A DNA stretch of 64,000 bases, taken from Kitasatospora sp. NBC_01250. Its GTDB lineage: Bacteria > Actinomycetota > Actinomycetes > Streptomycetales > Streptomycetaceae. The notes beneath the pieces are model-generated. The model made no database searches. It was not told the DNA's origin and saw only the letters and a program-made list of their open reading frames with translations. This document shows positions 26,790-40,103 of this stretch, in pieces (position 1 is the first letter of the stretch; each line of letters begins with the position of its first letter). Position numbers and translations under genes: made by a program. Location: NCBI RefSeq assembly GCF_036226465.1, contig NZ_CP108476.1, forward strand, positions 6,262,001 to 6,326,000, in the 5' to 3' direction.

Positions 26790-27365
26790 GTGGGTGTCAG
26801 CCTGAGCAAGGGCGGCAACGTCTCGCTGACCAAGGAGGCCCCGGGCCTGACCGCGGTGCTCGTCGGCCTCGGCTGGGACGCGCGCACCACGACGGGCGCG
26901 GAGTTCGACCTGGACGCCAGTGCGCTGCTCTGCACCGAGCAGGGCAAGGTCGCCAAGGACAGCGACTTCGTCTTCTTCAACAACCTGACCAGCCCGGACG
27001 GTTCGGTCGAGCACACCGGCGACAACCTGACCGGTGAGGGCGAGGGCGACGACGAGACGATCAAGGTCAACCTGGCCGCCGTGCCGGCCTCGGTCGCCAA
27101 GATCGTCTTCCCGGTCTCGATCTACGAGGCGGAGACCCGGCTGCAGAACTTCGGCCAGGTCCGCAACGCCTACATCCGGGTGGTCAACCAGGCCGGCGGT
27201 CAGGAGATCGCCCGCTACGACCTGACCGAGGACGCCTCCACCGAGACGGCGATGGTCTTCGGCGAGCTCTACCGCAGCGGCGCCGAGTGGAAGTTCCGCG
27301 CCATCGGCCAGGGCTACGCCTCGGGCCTGCGCGGCATCGCCCAGGACTTCGGTGTGAACGTCTGA
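26790..27365 (+). CDS. terD: TerD family Ca2+-binding stress protein, copy 1
   Basis: 191 aa from GTG at 26790, with GGAGG upstream. TerD proteins bind Ca2+ through conserved acidic loops and act in tellurite, oxidant and phage/colicin stress responses, often with membrane TerC. Both Ca2+ motifs are intact: [11 protein letters not shown] and [13 protein letters not shown]. The family core [41 protein letters not shown] is almost unchanged. It is cytosolic. A strong hairpin and a second terD copy follow, with the DUF475 membrane partner next. Confidence 0.96.
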
Positions 27366-27428: not shown

Positions 27429-27667
27429 CCGTGCGTACGGCGAAAAGGTGCGTCCGCTGACGGCCCGGCCGGGGAGCGCGTGGCCCGGCGGCCGGATACC
27501 CGAACGCCGGGCTGAAGCGGGGTTCCGCCCCCTTGATAGGTTCGAAGTTCAGCATGTTCAGTGGGCGGTTCGGAACCGTTCGGGGGCCGGAGGGCGTACA
27601 TGTGGAGTTCGCCCTCTGTGTCTCACCGCACGGTGCCGGCTGCCAGGGAGTGGGAGGAAAGACGACG
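27429..27667 (+). other. Promoter region of terD copy 2
   Basis: 239 bp without a gene. TAGGTT at 27537-27542 is a possible -10 element; no clear -35 partner or dyad was seen. The ribosome binding site GGAGGAAAG precedes the ATG at 27668. Confidence 0.4.
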
Positions 27668-28252
27668 ATGAGTGTCACGCTCGCCAAGGGCGGCAACGTC
27701 TCGCTGAGCAAGGCCGCGCCCGGCCTGACCCAGGTTCAGATCGGCCTGGGCTGGGACGCCCGGTCGACCACCGGCGCGCCCTTCGACCTCGACGCGAGCG
27801 CGCTGCTCTGCTCGGGCGGCCGGGTGCTCGGCGACGAGTACTTCGTCTTCTACAACAACCTCAAGAGCCCGGAGGGCTCGGTCGAGCACCTGGGCGACAA
27901 CCTGGTCGGCGGCCAGGAGGGTGACGAGGGCGACGAGGAGGTGATGGTGGTCAACCTGGACCTGGTGCCCGCGCAGGTCGACAAGGTGGTCTTCCCGGTC
28001 TCGATCTACGACGCGGACGCGCGGGTGCAGAGCTTCGGCCAGGTCCGCAACGCCTACATCCGGGTGGTCAACCAGGCCGGCGGTCAGGAGATCGCCCGCT
28101 ACGACCTGACCGAGGACGCCTCCAGCGAGACCGCGATGATCTTCGGCGAGCTCTACCGCTACCAGGGCGAGTGGAAGTTCCGGGCGGTCGGCCAGGGGTA
28201 CGCGTCCGGTCTGCGCGGAATCGCCCTCGACTTTGGGGTCAACGTACAGTAA
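27668..28252 (+). CDS. terD: TerD family Ca2+-binding stress protein, copy 2
   Basis: 194 aa from ATG at 27668. It is very close to copy 1 across its whole length, with the motifs [11 protein letters not shown] and GDNLVGGQEGDEGDEE. The second acidic loop is three residues longer than in copy 1 and richer in Glu, so Ca2+ affinity may differ. The core block [31 protein letters not shown] is identical to copy 1 except at the edges, which points to a tandem duplication. The DUF475 gene starts 50 bp downstream and is probably cotranscribed. Confidence 0.96.
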   Translation: MSVTLAKGGNVSLSKAAPGLTQVQIGLGWDARSTTGAPFDLDASALLCSGGRVLGDEYFVFYNNLKSPEGSVEHLGDNLVGGQEGDEGDEEVMVVNLDLVPAQVDKVVFPVSIYDADARVQSFGQVRNAYIRVVNQAGGQEIARYDLTEDASSETAMIFGELYRYQGEWKFRAVGQGYASGLRGIALDFGVNVQ

Positions 28253-28302
28253 AGGCATCGTCAAATTCTCGGCGCGCCATGTCACCGAAAGGTAGTAATA
28301 CC

Positions 28303-29442
28303 GTGTTCCTCCGCACTTTCGGATGGTCCTTCGCGACCACGGTCGCCGGGCTGATCGCGGCCGGGCTGATCTGGGGCGCCGAGGGTTTCGGCGTGGTGCT
28401 GATCCTCGCGGTCCTGGAGATCTCACTCTCGTTCGACAACGCCGTGGTCAACGCCACAGTGCTGAAGCGGATGACTCCGTTCTGGCAGAAGATCTTCCTG
28501 ACGGTGGGCGTGCTGATCGCCGTCTTCGGCATGCGGCTGCTCTTCCCGCTGCTGGTCGTAGGCCTGACCGCGCACATCGGCCCGAGCACGGTGATCGACC
28601 TCGCGCTCAACTCCGGCCACACGTACCACGGTCTGACCTACGCCCAGCATCTGGAAGCGGCCAATCCCGCGATCGCCGCGTTCGGCGGGACCTTCCTGCT
28701 GATGATCTTCCTCGACTTCATCCTCGAGGAGAAGGACTACCACTGGCTGCGCTGGATCGAGCGCCCGCTGGAGCGGATCGGCCGGCTGGAGGCGCTCTCC
28801 TCGGTGATCGCACTGGTCGCGCTGGCGCTGGCGGCCCGCTTCTTCGCGGCGGGGCACGCGGAAACGGTCCTGCTGGCGGGGCTGCTGGGGCTGGCGACCT
28901 ACCTCGCGGTCAACGGGCTCTCGGGTGTCTTCGAGTCGAACATGGAGGCTGCCGAGGAGAGTGACGAGGAGGCCGAGGAGGAGGGTGCCGCCGGGGCCGG
29001 TGCCGCCGCGAAGCCCGGCAAGTCGCTGGTCCAGGTGGCCGGCAAGGCCGCGTTCTTCCTCTTCCTGTACCTGGAGGTGCTGGACGCCTCGTTCTCCTTC
29101 GACGGGGTCGTCGGCGCCTTCGCGATCTCCAACGACATCTTCCAGATCACCCTGGGCCTGGGCATCGGGGCGATGTACATCCGCTCGCTGACCGTCTTCC
29201 TGGTCCGCAAGGGGACCCTGGACGACTACGTCTACCTGGAGCACGGCGCCCACTACGCGATCGGCGCGCTGGCGGCGATCCTGCTGATCTCGATCGAGTA
29301 CAAGATCCCGGAGATCGTCACCGGGCTGATCGGCGTGGCCTTCATCGGCGCCGCCCTCGCCTCCTCGATGCTGCGCAACCGGCGCACCGCTGCGCTGGAG
29401 TCGGTGGCCGAACCGGAGCCGACGGCGGTCGGCAAGCGCTGA
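28303..29442 (+). CDS. DUF475 TerC-like integral membrane protein
   Basis: 379 aa from GTG at 28303, chosen because AAAGG lies 10 bases upstream and the protein then begins FLRTFGWSFATTVAGLIAAG, as in family members; an in-frame ATG at 28279 has no ribosome binding site. Two related halves carry the TerC signatures EISLSFDNAVVNATVL and EVLDASFSFDGVVGAFAISNDI, each with the membrane-buried Asp/Asn pair thought to bind metal. About eight spans are visible, with an acidic cytoplasmic loop (EAAEESDEEAEEEG). It probably partners the TerD proteins at the membrane in metal ion handling. Confidence 0.93.
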   Translation: MFLRTFGWSFATTVAGLIAAGLIWGAEGFGVVLILAVLEISLSFDNAVVNATVLKRMTPFWQKIFLTVGVLIAVFGMRLLFPLLVVGLTAHIGPSTVIDLALNSGHTYHGLTYAQHLEAANPAIAAFGGTFLLMIFLDFILEEKDYHWLRWIERPLERIGRLEALSSVIALVALALAARFFAAGHAETVLLAGLLGLATYLAVNGLSGVFESNMEAAEESDEEAEEEGAAGAGAAAKPGKSLVQVAGKAAFFLFLYLEVLDASFSFDGVVGAFAISNDIFQITLGLGIGAMYIRSLTVFLVRKGTLDDYVYLEHGAHYAIGALAAILLISIEYKIPEIVTGLIGVAFIGAALASSMLRNRRTAALESVAEPEPTAVGKR

Positions 29443-31084: not shown

Positions 31085-31807
31085 ATGGCCACGATCTGGG
31101 AGTACCTGCGCGGCGAGCGGAACCTGCCCGACATGATGGGGCAGGTGGGGAAGGTGACGCTCACCAAGTCCCGGCCGCAGCACTCGATCACCACCTCCGG
31201 GGCGACCACCGGCACCCTCTACGTCAACCTGCACTGGACCGCCCGTCTGGTCTCCGGCTCGCAGGGCGCGCTGCGCCGCAAGCTGCTCCAGCCCCGGCTG
31301 CTGCGCCCGTCCCAGACCGAGACCACCCAGGGCGGCGCCGAGAACGTCGACCTCGACCTCGCCTGCATGTACGAACTCACCGACGGGACCCGGGGCGTGG
31401 TCCAGCCGCTCGGGAAGTTCTTCGGGGACCTGCAGCATCCGCCCTACATCAAGCTGAGCGGCGACGACCAGTACGGGGCGCCGTCCGGCGAGACGATGTA
31501 CATCAACCTGGAGAAGAAGGACCAGTTCAAGCGGCTGCTGATCTTCGTCTACATCTACGACGGCACGCCGGCCTTCGACCAGACGCACGCGCAGATCCAG
31601 ATCGTGCCGCCGAGCGGGCCGCGGCTGGAGATCAACCTGGACGAGCGGGCGGCGGCGGCCCGTTCGTGCGCGGTGGTGCTGATCGAGAACCGGGACGGGG
31701 AGCTGATGGTCCGTCGCGAGGTGCGGTACGTGCACGGGTTCCAGTCGGACCTGGACCGGCTGTACGGGTTCGGGATGGACTGGCAGCGGGGGTACAAGGA
31801 GGAGTAG
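31085..31807 (+). CDS. Short TerA-like (TerD-domain) protein
   Basis: 240 aa from ATG at 31085. The first 35 residues are an unusual leader (TIWEYLRGERNLPDMMGQVGKVTLTKSRP). The remainder is one TerD-fold domain with the acidic motifs NVDLDLACMYELTDG and SGDDQYGAPSGETMYINL, and the later block IFVYIYDGTPAFDQTHAQIQIV. Classical TerA has about 385 residues and two domains, so this is a single-domain relative. The C-terminus ENRDGELMVRREVRYVHGFQSDLDRLYGFGMDWQRGYKEE is conserved in streptomycete homologues. It is cytosolic and converges on the proline-rich TerD gene with a 28-bp gap. Confidence 0.85.
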   Translation: MATIWEYLRGERNLPDMMGQVGKVTLTKSRPQHSITTSGATTGTLYVNLHWTARLVSGSQGALRRKLLQPRLLRPSQTETTQGGAENVDLDLACMYELTDGTRGVVQPLGKFFGDLQHPPYIKLSGDDQYGAPSGETMYINLEKKDQFKRLLIFVYIYDGTPAFDQTHAQIQIVPPSGPRLEINLDERAAAARSCAVVLIENRDGELMVRREVRYVHGFQSDLDRLYGFGMDWQRGYKEE

Positions 31808-31835: not shown

Positions 31836-32900
31836 TCAGCGGGGCTGGAACTGGGGGCCCTGCGGGGGCAGGGCGAAGTCCGGGTCGAGCACCTGGGTGG
31901 GCTGGGACGGCAGGGGCGCTGGGGGCTGCTGCGGGTAGCCGTAGGGCGGCGGTTGCTGGGGGTAGCCGTACGTGGGGGCGGGCGCCGGGGCGGGGGCCGG
32001 CTGCTGGGGGTAGCCGTAGGGGGGCTGCTGCTGCGGGTAGCCGTAGCTGGGCTGGTGCGGCGGAGCCGGCGGGTAGGCGGGGGCGGTCGGCGGCTGCTGC
32101 GGGTAGCCGTACCCGGGCGCGCTGGTGGGCGCGGGCGCAGTGGCGGTGACGGGCGCGGCGGCGGGCGGCGGGGGCGTCGGGGCGCCGGCGGCCGGGGACG
32201 GGACGGCCGGGATGCCGGCGGCGGGGGACGGGACGGCCGGGGCGAGCGTGTAGGTGCCGGGCTCCTCGGTGCGCGGAGCGGGCCGCGCCGAGGGCGCGGC
32301 GGGGTGCTGTGCCGGGGGCGCCGGCTCGGGCCGGGCGGTGGCGGTGGGAGCGGCGTCCTCCTCGACCGCGATCCCGAAGTCGGTGGCGAGACCGCCGAGG
32401 CCGGAGGCGTAGCCCTGACCGACCGCGCGGAACTTCCAGCCGCCGTCCCGCCGGTAGAGCTCGGCGCAGACCAGGGCCGAGACCGGCTCGGTCTCGTTGA
32501 CCGGGAACTCGGCCAGCGGCTCGGCGCCGGGCGCGGCCGCGTCGTGGAGCAGCACCCGCAGCCCGCGGACGGCGCGGAAGTCGCCGCCCTCGACCGAGCC
32601 GGCCAGCACCACCCGGTGGACCTCGGCCGGCAGCTTCCCGAGGTCGACCTCGATGGCGTCGGTGATCTCCTCACCGCCCGGGCTCTGGTGCTTGGGCAGG
32701 TGACGCACCGTGCCCGAAGGATGCCGCGGCTGGTTGTAGAAGACGAAGTCGGCATCGGAGCGGACCTTGCCGGCGGCGCCGAGCAGCAGCGCGGAGGCGT
32801 CCAGGTCCGGGGTCCCCGGTGCCGCGCTCCAGCGCAGCACGGCGCGGACCGCGGTCGCGGTCAGCGAGATGTTGGCGCCCTTCGCCATCACGTGCGTCAT
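31836..32900 (-). CDS. Divergent TerD domain with Tyr-Gly-Tyr-Pro-Gln-Gln repeat tail
   Basis: 354 aa from ATG at 32900; a second in-frame ATG at 32888 is possible. Residues 1-180 are a TerD domain ([36 protein letters not shown]). The second Ca2+ loop of TerD (GDNxTGxGxGDDE) is replaced by LPKHQSPGGEEITD, so Ca2+ binding is probably altered. Residues 180-354 are a disordered Ala/Pro-rich linker and a tail with at least six YGYPQQ-type units, ending PPQGPQFQPR. Such tails favour multivalent or surface interactions. The palindrome at 33002 lies about 100 bp upstream of its start. Confidence 0.9.
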   Translation of the reverse strand: MTHVMAKGANISLTATAVRAVLRWSAAPGTPDLDASALLLGAAGKVRSDADFVFYNQPRHPSGTVRHLPKHQSPGGEEITDAIEVDLGKLPAEVHRVVLAGSVEGGDFRAVRGLRVLLHDAAAPGAEPLAEFPVNETEPVSALVCAELYRRDGGWKFRAVGQGYASGLGGLATDFGIAVEEDAAPTATARPEPAPPAQHPAAPSARPAPRTEEPGTYTLAPAVPSPAAGIPAVPSPAAGAPTPPPPAAAPVTATAPAPTSAPGYGYPQQPPTAPAYPPAPPHQPSYGYPQQQPPYGYPQQPAPAPAPAPTYGYPQQPPPYGYPQQPPAPLPSQPTQVLDPDFALPPQGPQFQPR

Positions 32901-33389: not shown

Positions 33390-34523
33390 TTGCGCCATTT
33401 CGGCCACCTCGGCGTGGACGTCCGCCGTCGGCTCTTCCTGGTCGAGCCGGCGGCGTTCGACCGGCATGCCCCGGCGGCGACGCTGGCCACCGCGCTGGGC
33501 GCCACCCTCTATCTGCCCGCCACCCGCGGCACGCTGGTGAGCGATGTGCGCAGGCAGGCGGCCCGCGGGGTGACCTCGATGGTGCTCTGCCTGGAGGACG
33601 CCATCGCCGACGGCGAGGTGACCGCCGCCGAGGCGAACCTGGTCGACGGGCTGCGCGCGCTGGCGGAGCCGGTCGGCGCGGCCGGTCCGGGGCCGGTCGG
33701 GTTGCCGCTGCTCTTTGTGCGGGTCCGGGTCCCTGAGCAGATCGGGGTGCTGGTGGGTCGGCTGGGCACGGCGGCCCGGCTGCTGAGCGGCTTCGTGCTG
33801 CCCAAGTTCACCGAGGAGAACGGCGCGCGCTATCTGGACGCCGTGGCGGACGCCGAACTCGCCTGCGGACAGCGGATGTTCGCCATGCCGGTGCTGGAGT
33901 CGCCGGAACTCGCCCACCTGGAGCACCGCCGCCTGGAACTGCTCGGCATAGCTGCGCTCTTGGCGAAGTACCGGGACCGGGTGCTGGCCGTTCGGCTCGG
34001 TGTGACCGACCTGTGCGCGGCCTACGGGCTGCGCCGGTCGCCCGAGTCGACGGCCTACGACCTGGCCCTGGTGGCCGGCGTGATCGGGGACGTGGTCAAC
34101 GTGCTCGGCCGGGCGGACGGCAGCGGATTCACCGTGACCGGGCCGGTCTGGGAGTACTTCCCGCTCGGGCGCAGCGGGGCGGAGCTGACCGGCCTGCTGC
34201 GCGAAATCGCACTCGACCGGGTCAACGGGCTGCTGGGCAAGACCTGCGTGCACCCGAGCCAGGTACCGGCGGTGCACGCCAGCCTGGTGGTCGGACACGA
34301 GGAGTACTGCGACGCGCGGGACGTGCTCGGCAGCGCGGCGGAGCGCGGCGGGGGCGTGGTGGGTTCGGCGTACGCCAACAAGATGAACGAGGTCAAGCCG
34401 CACCGCGCCTGGGCGGAGCGGGTGTTGGGGCGCGCTGAGCTGTTCGGGGTGGCACGGGCGGGGGTCGGGTTCGCGGAGCTGTTCGCGGCCTGCCGGGATG
34501 CGGAGGTTCGTGGTGGGCGTTGA
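33390..34523 (+). CDS. CitE/HpcH-like C-C bond lyase of the Ter biosynthetic module
   Basis: 377 aa from TTG at 33390, preceded by GGGAG with 6 bases between; the product then begins RHFGHLGVDVRRRLF, as streptomycete homologues do. The TIM-barrel lyase features are VSMVLCLEDAI-like VTSMVLCLEDAIADGEV (acidic metal ligands), FVLPKF, and CVHPSQVPAV near the C-terminus. Pfam separates this Ter-linked branch as C-C_Bond_Lyase. In the Ter literature (Anantharaman, Iyer and Aravind) it is predicted to help make a nucleoside-like metabolite. It overlaps the PRTase gene by 11 bp, so the two are coupled. Substrate is unknown. Confidence 0.85.
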   Translation: MRHFGHLGVDVRRRLFLVEPAAFDRHAPAATLATALGATLYLPATRGTLVSDVRRQAARGVTSMVLCLEDAIADGEVTAAEANLVDGLRALAEPVGAAGPGPVGLPLLFVRVRVPEQIGVLVGRLGTAARLLSGFVLPKFTEENGARYLDAVADAELACGQRMFAMPVLESPELAHLEHRRLELLGIAALLAKYRDRVLAVRLGVTDLCAAYGLRRSPESTAYDLALVAGVIGDVVNVLGRADGSGFTVTGPVWEYFPLGRSGAELTGLLREIALDRVNGLLGKTCVHPSQVPAVHASLVVGHEEYCDARDVLGSAAERGGGVVGSAYANKMNEVKPHRAWAERVLGRAELFGVARAGVGFAELFAACRDAEVRGGR

Positions 34524-37158
34524 TCGCGTGGGTGCCGGAGGGGTGGGTGCTGATCGGATGGGTGCTGGCGTGTGTGACGGTGCGGTGTGGTCCGGGGACT
34601 GGGTCACCGAGCGGCTGGGCATGGAGCTGGTGGGGGATCCCGAGCTGACCGAGCTGCTCGGGCTCGCGGTCCGGGACAATCCGAAGCGGGCGCAGCTGCT
34701 GGTCTCGCAGGTGCTCGGCAAGCACGTGCCGCAGCGGCCCGGGCTGGTGCTCGGCGCCGGACGGCGGCTGGGCGCGGCGGTGCGCGAGCGGCTGGGCGAC
34801 GGCGGGGCGGGCGAGGGGCTGGGCGACGGGGTGGGCCCGGCGGAGCCGGTGACGGTGCTGGGCTTCGCCGAGACCGCGACCGGGCTCGGCCACTGCGTGG
34901 CCGACGAGCTGGACGCGTGCTATCTGCACTCCACCCGGCGGCCGGTGGCCTGGATGGTGCCGGCGGCCGGCTTCGAGGAGGTGCACTCGCACGCCACCTC
35001 GCACCTGTTGCTGCCCGACCATCCGGAACTGCTCGCGGGTGACGGGCCGTTGGTCCTGGTGGACGACGAACTGTCGACCGGGCAGACGGTGTTGAACACG
35101 ATCGAGGCGCTGCACCGGATTTGGCCGCGTCGGCGGTACCTGCTGGCCGCGCTGGTCGACCTGCGCGGTGACACCGACCGGGCCCGACTGGCCGCGTTCG
35201 CAGCCGAGTTGGGTGCGAGCGTCGAGGTGGTGGCGCTGGCCCAGGGGCGGGTGCGACTGCCGGCGGATGCGAATGCGCGGGGGCGGGAGCTGGTGGCGGC
35301 ATTGGCCGCGGACGGGGGATCCGCGGCGAGTGGGGCGGGGCACGTGCCGGGCGGGGCGGGTGAGGCGGGAGCCGGCCGGGCGGCGCGCGGTGAGCTGGTG
35401 CGGGCCGAGCTGCCGTGGCCGGCCGAGGTGCCCGAGGGCGGGCGGCACGGATTCCGGCCCGCGCAGCGCCGGGCGCTGGAGGCGGCGCTGCCCGATCTGG
35501 GGGAGCGGCTGGCCAAGGAACTGCGCGGCAGTGAGCGGCGGGTCCTGGTGCTGGGCTGCGAAGAGTTGAGCTACGCGCCGCTGCGGCTGGCGCACGCGCT
35601 GGAGGCGGCGCTGGAGGGCGCGGGCGCGTCGGTGGGCTGCTCGGTCCGCTTCTCGACGACCACGCGCTCGCCGGTCCTCGTGGTGGACGACCCCGGCTAC
35701 GCGATCCGGAGCGGGCTGGCCTTTCCCGCGCACGGTGCGCCGCAGGAGGGTGGCGGCACGCGGTTCGCGTACAACGTGGCGCCGGGGCGGGAGGCGGCGC
35801 GGCGGTTCGAGACGGTCGTGCTGGTCGTCGACGCCGTCTCCGACACGCCCGAACTGCGCTCGGCGGGCGGGCTGTTGGACCAGCTGCGGGCGGTGACGGA
35901 CCGGGTGGTGCTGGTGGTGCTGCCGGTCTGGCACCCCGGCGCTGCCGCCGCGCCGCCGGTGGGGGCGCTGCTCGCGCCGGTGCCTGCGGGTGCGTTGTCT
36001 GCGCCGGTGCCTGCGAGTGCGCCGCCCGCGCCGTTGCCGGTCCCGCTGCGTGGTCCGGCCTTCTCCTCCTACGCGGCCGAGGAGGTGGGCTGGCTGCTGA
36101 CCGATCTGTCCGCTGTCGCGCTGGAGGCGCCCACCGAGGAGCGGGAGGAGGCCGTGCAGTCCGGCGGCGCCCACTACGCGGAGTCGCTGCCGGTGGAGTA
36201 CCACCCGGGCCCCGAGTACCTGGAGCTGTTCCAGCAGGCGCTGCGCGGCTCGGCCCGGCGGATCGCGCTGGCCGTCGGCACCGTCGCGGAGATGCTGGTC
36301 CGTGAGCGCGGCCGGGACCTGGTGCTGGCCTCGCTGGCCCGGGCCGGGACCCCCGTCGGCATCCTGATCCGCCGCTGGCTGGCCGCCGAGCACCGGATCG
36401 ACGCGCCGCACTACGCCGTCTCGATCATCCGTGGCCGGGGCGTCGATCCGGTCGCGCTGCGCTATCTGGCGGAGCGTCATGATCCGCGTCAGGTCGTCTT
36501 CGTGGACGGCTGGACCGGGAAGGGTGCGATCACCCGGGAGCTGTCCGAGGCGCTGGCCGGCACCCCGTTCGACCCCGACCTCGCGGTGCTCGCCGACCCC
36601 GGCCGCTGCGTGCGGACCTTCGGCACCCGGGAGGACTTCCTGATCCCGTCCGCCTGCCTCAACTCGACGGTCTCCGGCCTGATTTCGCGCACCGTGCTGC
36701 GGCGGGACCTGATCGGGCCCGGCGACTTCCACGGCGCCAAGTACTACCAGGAGTTGGCGCCCGCGGACGTCTCGCGCGCCTTCCTGGACACGGTGACCGA
36801 GTGGTTCCCCGAGGTCCGCGCGGAGGTGGCCGCCGCCGAGCCGCCGGCCGACGCCGACCGGGCGCCGACCTGGACGGGCTGGGCCGCGGTGGAGCGGATC
36901 AGCGCCGAGTACGGGATCGGCAGCCTCAACCTGGTCAAGCCCGGCGTGGGCGAGACCACTCGGGTCCTGCTGCGCCGGGTGCCGTGGCGGATCCTGGCCC
37001 GCCGGGGCGCGGGGGCGGATCTGGACCACGTCCGGCTGCTGGCCGCGCAGCGCGGCGTGCCGGTGGAGGAGGTGGACGAGTTGCCGTACTCGTGCGTGGG
37101 ACTGATCCACCCGCAGTTCAGCCGGGGTGCGACCGGGCCGACGGGGCACGCGGTATGA
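34513..37158 (+). CDS. Fusion of two Ter phosphoribosyltransferases: PRTase/TRSP + StiP/PELOTA
   Basis: 881 aa from GTG at 34513 (GGAGG 6 bases upstream); ATG 34498 and ATG 34558 are alternatives. Residues 1-250 form an orotate-PRTase-like domain with the PRPP loop VLVDDELSTGQT (Asp184, Asp185). Residues about 300-540 match the TRSP region that follows it (GSERRVLVLGCEELSYAPLRLA, VLVVDDPGYAIRSG). From about 550 a second PRTase-like unit starts (HYAESLPVEYHPGPEYLELFQQAL), the family also called cysteine protease StiP, with VVFVDGWTGKGAI as its PRPP-like loop. The last 80 residues resemble a PELOTA RNA-binding domain (RRVPWRILARRGAGADLDHVRLLAAQRGVPV). In many bacteria these are two genes. An Ala/Pro linker (36000-36050) is low-complexity. 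Confidence 0.82.
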   Translation: MGVDRVGAGGVGADRMGAGVCDGAVWSGDWVTERLGMELVGDPELTELLGLAVRDNPKRAQLLVSQVLGKHVPQRPGLVLGAGRRLGAAVRERLGDGGAGEGLGDGVGPAEPVTVLGFAETATGLGHCVADELDACYLHSTRRPVAWMVPAAGFEEVHSHATSHLLLPDHPELLAGDGPLVLVDDELSTGQTVLNTIEALHRIWPRRRYLLAALVDLRGDTDRARLAAFAAELGASVEVVALAQGRVRLPADANARGRELVAALAADGGSAASGAGHVPGGAGEAGAGRAARGELVRAELPWPAEVPEGGRHGFRPAQRRALEAALPDLGERLAKELRGSERRVLVLGCEELSYAPLRLAHALEAALEGAGASVGCSVRFSTTTRSPVLVVDDPGYAIRSGLAFPAHGAPQEGGGTRFAYNVAPGREAARRFETVVLVVDAVSDTPELRSAGGLLDQLRAVTDRVVLVVLPVWHPGAAAAPPVGALLAPVPAGALSAPVPASAPPAPLPVPLRGPAFSSYAAEEVGWLLTDLSAVALEAPTEEREEAVQSGGAHYAESLPVEYHPGPEYLELFQQALRGSARRIALAVGTVAEMLVRERGRDLVLASLARAGTPVGILIRRWLAAEHRIDAPHYAVSIIRGRGVDPVALRYLAERHDPRQVVFVDGWTGKGAITRELSEALAGTPFDPDLAVLADPGRCVRTFGTREDFLIPSACLNSTVSGLISRTVLRRDLIGPGDFHGAKYYQELAPADVSRAFLDTVTEWFPEVRAEVAAAEPPADADRAPTWTGWAAVERISAEYGIGSLNLVKPGVGETTRVLLRRVPWRILARRGAGADLDHVRLLAAQRGVPVEEVDELPYSCVGLIHPQFSRGATGPTGHAV

Positions 37159-38111
37159 CGGAGCGTCAGAGTCGCTCGGCGTCGGCCGTGATGGTGGCGA
37201 GCGATCTGGACCGCACGCTGATCTACTCGCTGCGGTCGGCCGAACTGCCGCCCGGCTCGCCGGTGCGGCTGCGGCTGGTCGAGCGCGACGGTGAGGGCGC
37301 TCCGCTGAGCCATCTCACCGAGCGGGCTGCCCAGTTGCTGGCCGAGCTGGCCCGGGAGGCGGTGTTCGTCCCGGCCACCACCCGCACCGTCGAGCAGTAC
37401 CGGCGGATCCGGCTGCCCGGCCCGGCGGGTGCTGGTGGCTTCGGCCCGGCGGGCGGTGGTGACGGGGCCGACTGGCGTCCGCCGTACGCGATCTGTGCCA
37501 ACGGGGGCCGGCTGCTGGTCGCGGGCGAGCCGGACCAGGACTGGGCGGCCGTCGTGGCGCAGCGGCTCGCCGCACACGCCGCGCCGCTGCCGGAGGTGGC
37601 CGAGCGGCTGGCGGGTCGCGGCGCTGCGGGCGGCGCCGGCTGTGGCGGCAGCGGTGGTGGCGGTGGTGCTGAGGGTGGCTGGCTGCTGCGGCAGCGGGTG
37701 GCCGAGGGCTTGTTCGTCTACGCGATCGTGGATCGTGAGCGGCTGCCCGCCGCCTGGCTCGACGAGCTGACCGCCTGGTGCGCGGAGCGGGGCTGGACCG
37801 TCTCGCTCCAGGGCCGCAAGCTCTACGCCGTCCCCCGCGTGCTGACCAAGAGCGCCGCGGTCGCGGAGGTGGTCCGCCGCCAGGGCGGCCGGGCCACGGT
37901 GCTGGCGGCCGGGGACTCGCTGCTCGATGCCGACCTGCTGCTCGCCGCCGACCACGCCTGGCGCCCCGGCCACGGCGAACTGGCCGAGCGGGGCTGGACC
38001 GGCCCGCGGGTGACGGCGCTGGAGCAGCGCGGCGCGCTCGCGGGCGAGCAGATCCTGAGCGCGCTGCTCGCCCGCGTCCGGCAGCTGAACGGCCAGGCCA
38101 CCGACGGTTAG
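37155..38111 (+). CDS. HAD-superfamily phosphatase of the Ter biosynthetic module
   Basis: 318 aa from ATG at 37155, overlapping the PRTase stop by 4 bases (ATGA). Motif I is SDLDRTLIYS with nucleophile Asp17 and acid/base Asp19; the conserved Lys is in VLTKSAAVAEVV and motif IV is AAGDSLLDADLL. The pattern resembles Cof/sucrose-phosphatase type HADs with a C2 cap. A Gly-rich insertion (GRGAAGGAGCGGSGGGGGAEGG) interrupts the cap. It completes the three-gene operon of lyase, PRTase fusion and phosphatase, and may dephosphorylate the nucleoside-like product. The Ter ATP-grasp ligase that often accompanies this set is not found nearby. Confidence 0.88.
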   Translation: MTERQSRSASAVMVASDLDRTLIYSLRSAELPPGSPVRLRLVERDGEGAPLSHLTERAAQLLAELAREAVFVPATTRTVEQYRRIRLPGPAGAGGFGPAGGGDGADWRPPYAICANGGRLLVAGEPDQDWAAVVAQRLAAHAAPLPEVAERLAGRGAAGGAGCGGSGGGGGAEGGWLLRQRVAEGLFVYAIVDRERLPAAWLDELTAWCAERGWTVSLQGRKLYAVPRVLTKSAAVAEVVRRQGGRATVLAAGDSLLDADLLLAADHAWRPGHGELAERGWTGPRVTALEQRGALAGEQILSALLARVRQLNGQATDG

Positions 38112-38584: not shown

Positions 38585-39949
38585 CTACTGCTGGCCCAAC
38601 TGGCCGCGGATCAGCCCCACCACCTCGGCCGCCGTCGCGCGCACGCCGTCCAGCTCGGTGAGGAAGCGCCAGTAGTCCGGGTGCCGTCCGGCCGCCGACA
38701 ACGCGGCGACCGCCCGGTCCAGCCGCCCCACCGCCGCGTCCAGCGGTCCCGCGTGGCGCGGATCGGGCGCCTGGCGTCCGGCCATGGCCAGCCGCTGCGC
38801 GTCCCGCAGCGCGAAGCGCGCACGCTCCACCTCCGCCTGCGGATCACGCTCCGCCGCGTTCAGCCGCCGCAGTCGGTCGGCCACCGCGGCCACCGAGCCG
38901 TCGGCCGTCTCCAGCAGCGCCCGCACCGTCCCGAGCACCGACGCCGCGTCCGCCCACCGCTGCTCGTCGCGAGCCCGGGCCGCCTCCGCGAGCCTGGACT
39001 GCGCCGCCCGGCCCGCCTCCGCGACCTGCTGCGGCACCCGCTGCAGGTCCTGCCAGCACTCCGCGGAGAACCGCCGGCGCAGTTCGCTGAGCGTCGGCTC
39101 GACCGTGCCGGCCTTGGTCTCCAGCGCCTGCACCCGGGTCCGCAGGCTCGCCACCCGGCGGTCGATCTCGCGGGCCCGCTCCGGCCGCTGCTCGGCGTCC
39201 GCCAGGATCGCGGTCGCCCGCAGGCGTACGTCCTCGGCCCGTCGCAGCGTGTCCGTCACGCCGTGCCGGGCCGCACCCTCGTTGAGCTTGGTCAGCTCCG
39301 GCCGCAGCTCGGCCAGCCGGGCCGCCAGATCGTCCGCCCCCAGGCCCGCCGCCCGCACCGCCTCCAGCCCGCCGCCGGCCGCCAGCAGCGCCTGCTTGGC
39401 CTGCTCGACCGCCGGCACCACCCGCACCAGCTGCGCCTCCGCGTGCTGCACCAGCGGCTGCAGCCGCTGCAGGAAGTCGGCCAGCTCGGTCTGCTTGGCC
39501 GCCAGCTCGCGCTGGGCCTGCTCCAGCCGCTGCCTGGCCTGGGCAGCCGCCCCCGGCGCGAGTTCCACGGCCTCCAGGTCGATCGAGTCCAACGCCGCCA
39601 GGTACGCCATGGTGACCTGGTTGATCCGGGCACTCAGATCCTGGAAGTCGGCGAGGACCTGGCGCACCGACGCACCCTCCTCGGCGGCCCGCACCGTCTC
39701 GACGGCGAGCTCCACCTCGCGCTGCGCGGAGTCCAGCTCGTAGAACGCCTCCTGCGCCGCGTCCCGCGCGGCCACCGCCGCCGCCCGCTGCCCGTCCTCG
39801 CCACGCCGCCACCAGGACCGCCCACCGCCGGCCCCCGGCCCGGAGAACGACCCGGCCACCGCCACGAGGACCCCGGCCATCGCCACGGGCACCACCAGCA
39901 GCTCCGCCGCGACCCGCCCCGCGTACCCCCGCGTGCTACCCGCCCTCAC
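38585..39949 (-). CDS. Membrane-anchored long coiled-coil protein
   Basis: 454 aa from GTG at 39949, preceded by AGGGAG with 6 bases between; an ATG at 39985 is too close to its purine run. One membrane span lies at about 14-35 (AAELLVVPVAMAGVLVAVAGSF). The rest is almost wholly helical with heptad-like Leu/Ala patterns, e.g. ARQRLEQAQRELAAKQTELADFLQRLQPLV and IDRRVASLRTRVQALETKAGTVEPTLSELRRRF. Topology resembles EzrA or TelA-like scaffold proteins but no family motif was recognised. Its place between the Ter operon and the tRNA is conserved-looking. A role in membrane stress assemblies is only inference. Confidence 0.8.
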   Translation of the reverse strand: MRAGSTRGYAGRVAAELLVVPVAMAGVLVAVAGSFSGPGAGGGRSWWRRGEDGQRAAAVAARDAAQEAFYELDSAQREVELAVETVRAAEEGASVRQVLADFQDLSARINQVTMAYLAALDSIDLEAVELAPGAAAQARQRLEQAQRELAAKQTELADFLQRLQPLVQHAEAQLVRVVPAVEQAKQALLAAGGGLEAVRAAGLGADDLAARLAELRPELTKLNEGAARHGVTDTLRRAEDVRLRATAILADAEQRPERAREIDRRVASLRTRVQALETKAGTVEPTLSELRRRFSAECWQDLQRVPQQVAEAGRAAQSRLAEAARARDEQRWADAASVLGTVRALLETADGSVAAVADRLRRLNAAERDPQAEVERARFALRDAQRLAMAGRQAPDPRHAGPLDAAVGRLDRAVAALSAAGRHPDYWRFLTELDGVRATAAEVVGLIRGQLGQQ

Positions 39950-40103
39950 CGCGTGCTCCCTGCTCCACCGAACTGGACCCCTCATTCTCCCCGATCACCC
40001 CCCACCTCCCTAGCCCCGCCCCGCACCCTGCACCGTGCCGCGCCCGGGACCAGGTACTCTTACCTTTCACCGCACGCCCCCATCCGGGACCAGCAGGCGG
40101 CGG

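Follow-up and report, generated by a model that had tools for sequence, protein, structure and literature searches.

A biosynthetic module linked to Ter genes was reportedly described by Anantharaman, Iyer and Aravind in 2012, and the families PF15617, PF15609, PF12500, PF11202 and PF15608 are presumably those attributed to it. The enzymes of such Ter-linked modules are predicted to make a nucleoside-like metabolite (PMC8115787). A further point of comparison is Bcs3, the capsule polymerase of H. influenzae b, which pairs the transferase CriT with a HAD-like phosphatase: CriT, whose acids D680 and E818 form a pair placed in two loops, makes a PRPP-dependent O-ribosyl link, and the phosphatase (CrpP) then strips the phosphate (PMC10299916).

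The window (the whole stretch of 64,000 nucleotides analysed here, from Kitasatospora sp. NBC_01250) carries on its plus strand, at 33390-38111, an operon for a CitE-like lyase, a single chain of PRTase_2, TRSP, StiP and PELOTA_1 domains, and a HAD-type phosphatase, as identified by Pfam and NCBIfam searches and by motifs (table 1). It has in common with the 2012 module all five Pfam families together, the HAD gene and TerD/TerC neighbours, and differs from it in lacking an ATP-grasp, in the fusion of PRTase_2-TRSP to StiP-PELOTA and in the last position of the HAD gene. The Ter linkage asserted in the preliminary description is borne out by TerD, DUF475/TerC and TerA-like genes near the operon, the last being an ORF that we take to encode a TerA-like protein.

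Table 1. Features of the Ter biosynthetic operon and its surroundings, in positions of the window.
Feature	Positions	Strand	Remarks
TerD	26793..27350	+	Scanned stretch; gene ends approximate
TerD	27533..28252	+	ORF; domain residues 46-234
DUF475/TerC-family membrane protein	28171..29442	+	ORF; domain from residue 79-88
TerA-like protein (presumed)	31085..31807	+	No Pfam match
TerD with long repetitive Pro/Gln/Gly/Tyr tail	31836..32900	-	Divergent from operon
CitE-like C-C bond lyase	33390..34523	+	PF15617, E 4e-113; TTG start
Fused gene PRTase_2-TRSP-StiP-PELOTA_1	34498..37158	+	Single ORF, Pfam
PRTase_2 domain	34654..35247	+	Residues 53-250, Pfam E 5e-65; PRPP loop LVDDELSTG; APRT-like predicted fold
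TRSP domain	35434..35883	+	Residues 313-462, Pfam E 2e-33
TRSP-StiP intervening stretch, Pro/Ala-rich linker	35884..36063	+	Joint of fused gene
StiP domain	36064..36795	+	Residues 523-766, Pfam E 5e-104; DGWTGKG loop; predicted PRTase fold
PELOTA_1 domain	36871..37110	+	Residues 792-871, Pfam E 8e-34; L7Ae/L30e-like predicted fold
HAD-type phosphatase	37155..38111	+	ATG within ATGA overlap 37155-37158; HAD motifs
Coiled-coil-like protein	38585..39985	-	Weak family matches; adjoins operon

The gene set and the domain order first read from the DNA both stand: the Pfam models proposed for checking them (PRTase_2, TRSP, StiP and PELOTA_1) all match within one ORF, and these four domains and the lyase score far above the Pfam cut-offs. 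No Pfam family matches the last gene, and its NCBIfam matches, of HAD type, are weak (best E 0.003); its assignment draws on the motifs DLDRT and GDSLLDADLL, which are conserved among aligned relatives. The TTG start of the lyase aligns with the Met of several relatives (MRHFGH). Of the overlaps of 4-11 bp and the 881 residues reported earlier, the 4 bp between the fused gene and the HAD gene are found as described, and the other values depend on the start of the fused gene, which gives 881 residues and an 11-bp overlap with the lyase from GTG 34513 or 886 residues and 26 bp from ATG 34498; comparison with relatives does not decide between the two. A PADLOC run found nothing.

The arrangement of these genes differs between lineages. 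Five plasmid loci of Gram-positive bacteria (Tsukamurella, Alkaliphilus, Brevibacillus, Lactococcus and Mycolicibacterium) have the lyase, PRTase_2-TRSP and StiP-PELOTA in this order, followed by the HAD gene in all but Brevibacillus. Proteobacterial ter plasmid operons of Shewanella (L075), Pseudomonas (L264) and Azospirillum (L267) encode the same lyase, PRTase_2-TRSP, HAD and StiP-PELOTA proteins, but in the order PRTase_2-TRSP, HAD, StiP-PELOTA, lyase, with the HAD gene keeping the transferase genes apart and the lyase gene last. An ATP-grasp gene stands first in L075 and L264 and was not found in L267; the operons of L075 and L264 lie beside TerD/TerB/TerC genes. The Gram-positive form sets the two transferase genes side by side, and there they can fuse. 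Ter biosynthetic genes also occur on two IMG/VR viral contigs, L157 and L158; in L157 the lyase, HAD and the two transferase genes are accompanied by an ATP-grasp and by TerD genes.

To describe the distribution of the fusion we used a class sample of 197 genomes, 44 of which have a StiP match, above the cut-off in 43. The 43 loci, one of them that of the window, comprise 24 fused and 19 split ones, the fused form being found in 16/16 Streptomycetaceae genomes versus 8/27 genomes of other actinobacteria. Within the genus, StiP is present in 58 of 61 genomes, and the 57 loci besides that of our own genome divide into 31 fused and 26 split. A further 84 loci (80 from named genomes, two from plasmids and two from viral contigs) comprise 61 fused, 18 split and five incomplete ones; the 80 named loci are the best-matching ones out of more than 590, and so a non-random sample. 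The top named StiP relative among the matches listed is that of Kitasatospora sp. MAA4, with 85% identity. The coiled-coil-like gene downstream of the window operon is kept beside the operon in 25 of the 43 class loci, on the opposite strand and downstream in 16 Streptomycetaceae and on the same strand and upstream in nine loci of other families; it also adjoins the operon in Tsukamurella and Mycolicibacterium.

A tree of 162 rows requires at least nine switches between the fused and the split state, seven of them forced by starred branches. Four loci in which the PRTase_2 frame seems interrupted (L084, L128, L142 and L240) were counted as split in the first counts and tree and dropped from the 162-row tree and the test for Shine-Dalgarno (SD) matches; the earlier tree, which included them, gave 13 changes. 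In both trees and in the SD test identical rows were merged and near-copies kept. Where the genes are split, a separate StiP start follows the PRTase stop or overlaps it. This start mostly lies in a different frame; in a few loci it is in frame but comes after a stop codon. The fusion is thus a recurrent, changeable trait, given the number of switches and the counts of both forms. A view of it as unusual is not supported, given its frequency in the Streptomycetaceae (16/16 class genomes, 31/57 genus loci), and the fusion itself is an ordinary variant within a known system. The parts of the literature covered by our search, to which the 2012 source paper did not belong, hold no description of the fusion or of an internal start.

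The preliminary description was correct that no ATP-grasp is visible, as there is no credible one in the whole genome; its view of this protein as a missing partner fares less well, as an ATP-grasp lies within reach of the StiP gene in just 1/43 class loci (L071) and in 0/5 of the Gram-positive plasmid loci. Since most of the Gram-positive operons examined are without it, we would not make it a defining element here; absence of the ATP-grasp is a trait of the Gram-positive operon form, as sampled. Among other proteins resembling ATPgrasp_Ter, one is encoded near an encapsulin gene (L255:5546-6769), one near a glycoside-hydrolase-18 gene (L257:5810-7051) and two near glycosyltransferase-family-20 genes (L261, L262), with no Ter gene in the stretches examined.

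Predicted structures suggest what the two transferase modules are. AlphaFold models were obtained from the window and related loci for StiP-PELOTA (mean pLDDT 87, 33 sequences) and PRTase_2-TRSP (mean pLDDT 81, 30 sequences). The PRTase_2 model resembles adenine PRTases (Foldseek E 2e-7; for APRT, VIA Z 13.8, rmsd 3.2, 174 aligned), and its PRPP loop, vlvDDE..tG, is conserved in 31 diverse sequences. For the StiP model the highest VIA match is CriT in Bcs3 (8a0c; Z 11.4, rmsd 3.8, 194 aligned), and PyrR (4p81) also matches (Z 10.2, rmsd 3.5, 143 aligned); Foldseek matches of StiP to PRTases are weak (best E 4e-4, with E <=0.001 in 2/1325). The conserved StiP motifs are RAG, Hy..Si.r.rG.D and DGWtGKG, the last within a stretch fvDGWtGKGa that is kept in 32 StiP sequences and in which Gly replaces the second acid of the canonical PRPP loop (VDG, no DD pair); D161 of the model is invariant in the StiP alignment. 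The PRTase_2 and StiP profiles do not match each other (E 0.41 and 0.25), and in sequence searches of PDB neither the fused protein nor the StiP profile had a match better than E 0.3. From the models, StiP is predicted to have a PRTase-like fold with the O-ribosyl transferase CriT and PyrR as its nearest neighbours, and the motifs together with both predicted folds agree with the earlier claim of two PRTase-type modules in one chain. The likeness to the CriT/CrpP pair of Bcs3 would lie in a PRTase-like fold (predicted for StiP) working with a HAD-like phosphatase; in Bcs3 the product is a polymer and CriT is fused to its own phosphatase. The PELOTA model resembles proteins of the L7Ae/L30e type (Z 9.3 over 69 residues to YbxF).

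The TRSP domain is possibly a degenerate PRTase-like fold, a suggestive lead. The best of seven profiles for TRSP is PRTase_2 (E 1.2e-3 and 4.6e-4, probability 20-33%), followed by HAD (8e-3); it should be noted that this match calls for caution, given that PRTase_2 and StiP, which would be expected to match if both are PRTases, give E 0.25. As we read the AlphaFold model, the helices and strands predicted for TRSP succeed one another as in PRTase_2. TRSP has not retained the PRPP acids.

Several other explanations bear on this picture. A frameshift or assembly error might have fused two true genes, and split forms indeed occur within the same genus; however, the fused form accounts for 32 of the 58 loci in the genus, counting that of the window, and is shared by the nearest relative, L221, at 91% identity over 509 columns; the assembly is a single 9.0-Mb contig, and third-position GC stays at or above 0.90 in one frame across the 150-base blocks 35863-36312 that span the joint. 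With codon phase, contig and relative giving no sign of such an error, an artefact can be practically dismissed, and the joint is sound, as the preliminary description supposed. It might also be argued that the pathway requires an ATP-grasp and is served by an unlinked copy, since 8/22 other actinobacterial genomes have an ATP-grasp match (100-187 bits) that is either on a different contig from StiP or at a distance from it. That of G069 alone was seen beside TerD; in G069 and G190 StiP and the ATP-grasp are on separate contigs, so the two may be linked there. Our own genome has one frame just over the cut-off of Pfam ATPgrasp_Ter (31.8 bits) and one below, but the former is L-amino-acid-ligase-like (30.2 bits on re-scoring vs 65.5 to ATP-grasp_4) and the latter a carbamoyl-phosphate synthase. 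As a genome test this Pfam model is unspecific, with matches in 13 of 14 control genomes. A model aligned from three Ter ATP-grasps (Shewanella, viral contig L157 and actinobacterium L071), which themselves score 106-140 bits on ATPgrasp_Ter, above its cut-off, reaches at best 25.5 bits in our genome versus 626 in W01 and 528 in G074, two controls whose own sequences are part of the model; a first search with the Shewanella ATP-grasp as sole query, run without a control, was also empty. An unlinked copy is therefore improbable. A protease in place of the second transferase is more doubtful still: StiP is named a cysteine protease by Pfam and NCBI, which would make the fusion a link between a protease and a PRTase, and in actinobacteria StiP often has the SACLN and ADPxxC cysteines. 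Yet in 32 diverse StiP sequences (Actinomycetota, Bacillota, Pseudomonadota and two viral contigs) no Cys is conserved at 85% or more, which argues against the name, the Shewanella StiP is without the SACLN Cys, and the predicted fold matches PRTases.

Internal in-frame starts that yield a long and a short protein are known from cheA, infB and cas10d, and an SD with an in-frame start inside a long ORF is likewise seen at the joint in many Streptomyces relatives of the window gene; unlike in those cases, two products are only predicted in Streptomyces, and the site is absent from the window gene. We scored an in-frame ATG or GTG as a start if it was preceded, at proper spacing, by 5 nt or more identical to the anti-SD complement. 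Outside the genus set, 45 of the 70 unique fused Streptomycetaceae ORFs have such a joint start, 41 of the 45 with ATG; by codons this is 45/75 at the joint versus 93/2141 in the rest of these ORFs. Within the genus set the start occurs in 7/33 fused loci (codons 8/49 at the joint versus 83/1222 elsewhere). All these counts and enrichments overstate independence, as related species share ancestry. In the set of 77 fused Streptomycetaceae ORFs used for codon counts, which was not de-duplicated, 57 have an in-frame ATG at a distance of 10-20 codons ahead of the StiP domain (0.057 expected per ORF) and 35 have GAAAGG at the joint (0.004 expected per ORF, judged by the remaining sequence of these ORFs); AGG makes up 38/95 of the Arg codons at the joint versus 131/5329 elsewhere, and GAA 59/84 of the Glu codons versus 543/4009. 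A test of SD duplex energies did not make the joint ATGs stand out (5/58 below the 5% point of control ATGs); the exact-match and codon tests were adopted after this test had failed to separate, and both outcomes should be weighed. In the last 90 bases of the linker before StiP, the window gene has no ATG and a longest anti-SD match of 4 nt. A missing SD match is weak evidence, because only 1/26 split Streptomycetaceae loci pass the strict criterion.

Many Streptomyces thus probably make the full fusion plus free StiP-PELOTA from the joint start, and the window gene probably makes the fusion alone, as far as the start sites suggest. What seems to be new is that the joint start is kept in many Streptomyces relatives, with no recognisable internal start in the window gene. 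If free StiP-PELOTA is also made, as the joint start in 45/70 ORFs suggests, the joint would not be an absolute need; channelling of an intermediate between the two PRTases stays a hypothesis of the preliminary description. It is quite possible, if not what we expect, that the gene is a plain fusion throughout, with no working internal start, and that the SD and ATG of Streptomyces are relics of a split ancestor. Linkers differ from locus to locus in both length and sequence, and no such site is present in the window; moreover, L194, a fused ORF within a clade of split genes, retains an SD-like stretch and an ATG at the joint before the StiP domain and has the look of a recent in-frame fusion in which the old start has survived. 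Relics are, however, harder to reconcile with the persistence of the rare AGG and GAA codons and of exact SD matches at the joint despite the strong third-position GC bias elsewhere.

We favour, with a probability of roughly 0.6, the reading of the locus as a Gram-positive Ter biosynthetic operon without ATP-grasp and with its middle genes fused, acting in PRPP-dependent ribosylation, with a joint start elsewhere in the Streptomycetaceae. By its predicted folds and by analogy with CriT and CrpP, the likeliest role of the operon is PRPP-dependent ribosylation of an acceptor, which the HAD enzyme would trim. PRTase_2 and StiP would both use PRPP; the lyase would make or break a C-C bond in the acceptor; StiP, with its predicted fold nearest CriT, would transfer ribose-5-phosphate onto it; and the HAD enzyme would take off the 5-phosphate, as CrpP does after CriT. 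PELOTA could be an RNA- or substrate-binding domain. Being fused, the PRTase_2 and StiP modules would be made at a constant 1:1 ratio, to which the joint start of many other Streptomycetaceae would probably add free StiP-PELOTA. A bolder version appears unlikely to us as a whole: one Ter gene would yield the fusion and free StiP-PELOTA in Streptomyces and an obligate fusion in part of Kitasatospora including this genome, StiP would be CriT-like and TRSP a dead third PRTase-like fold, and the product of this triple-PRTase machine would be O-ribosylated instead of being a nucleoside of the classical kind.

The occurrence of split, dual-start-like and obligately fused forms in one family makes this operon a good case of operon neighbours fusing, and the coexistence of split and fused forms within one genus offers the same case at genus scale. 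The operon bears on the question of the identity of the Ter biosynthetic product; with both transferase modules in one chain and no ATP-grasp, it is perhaps the simplest form for purification and for assays with PRPP.
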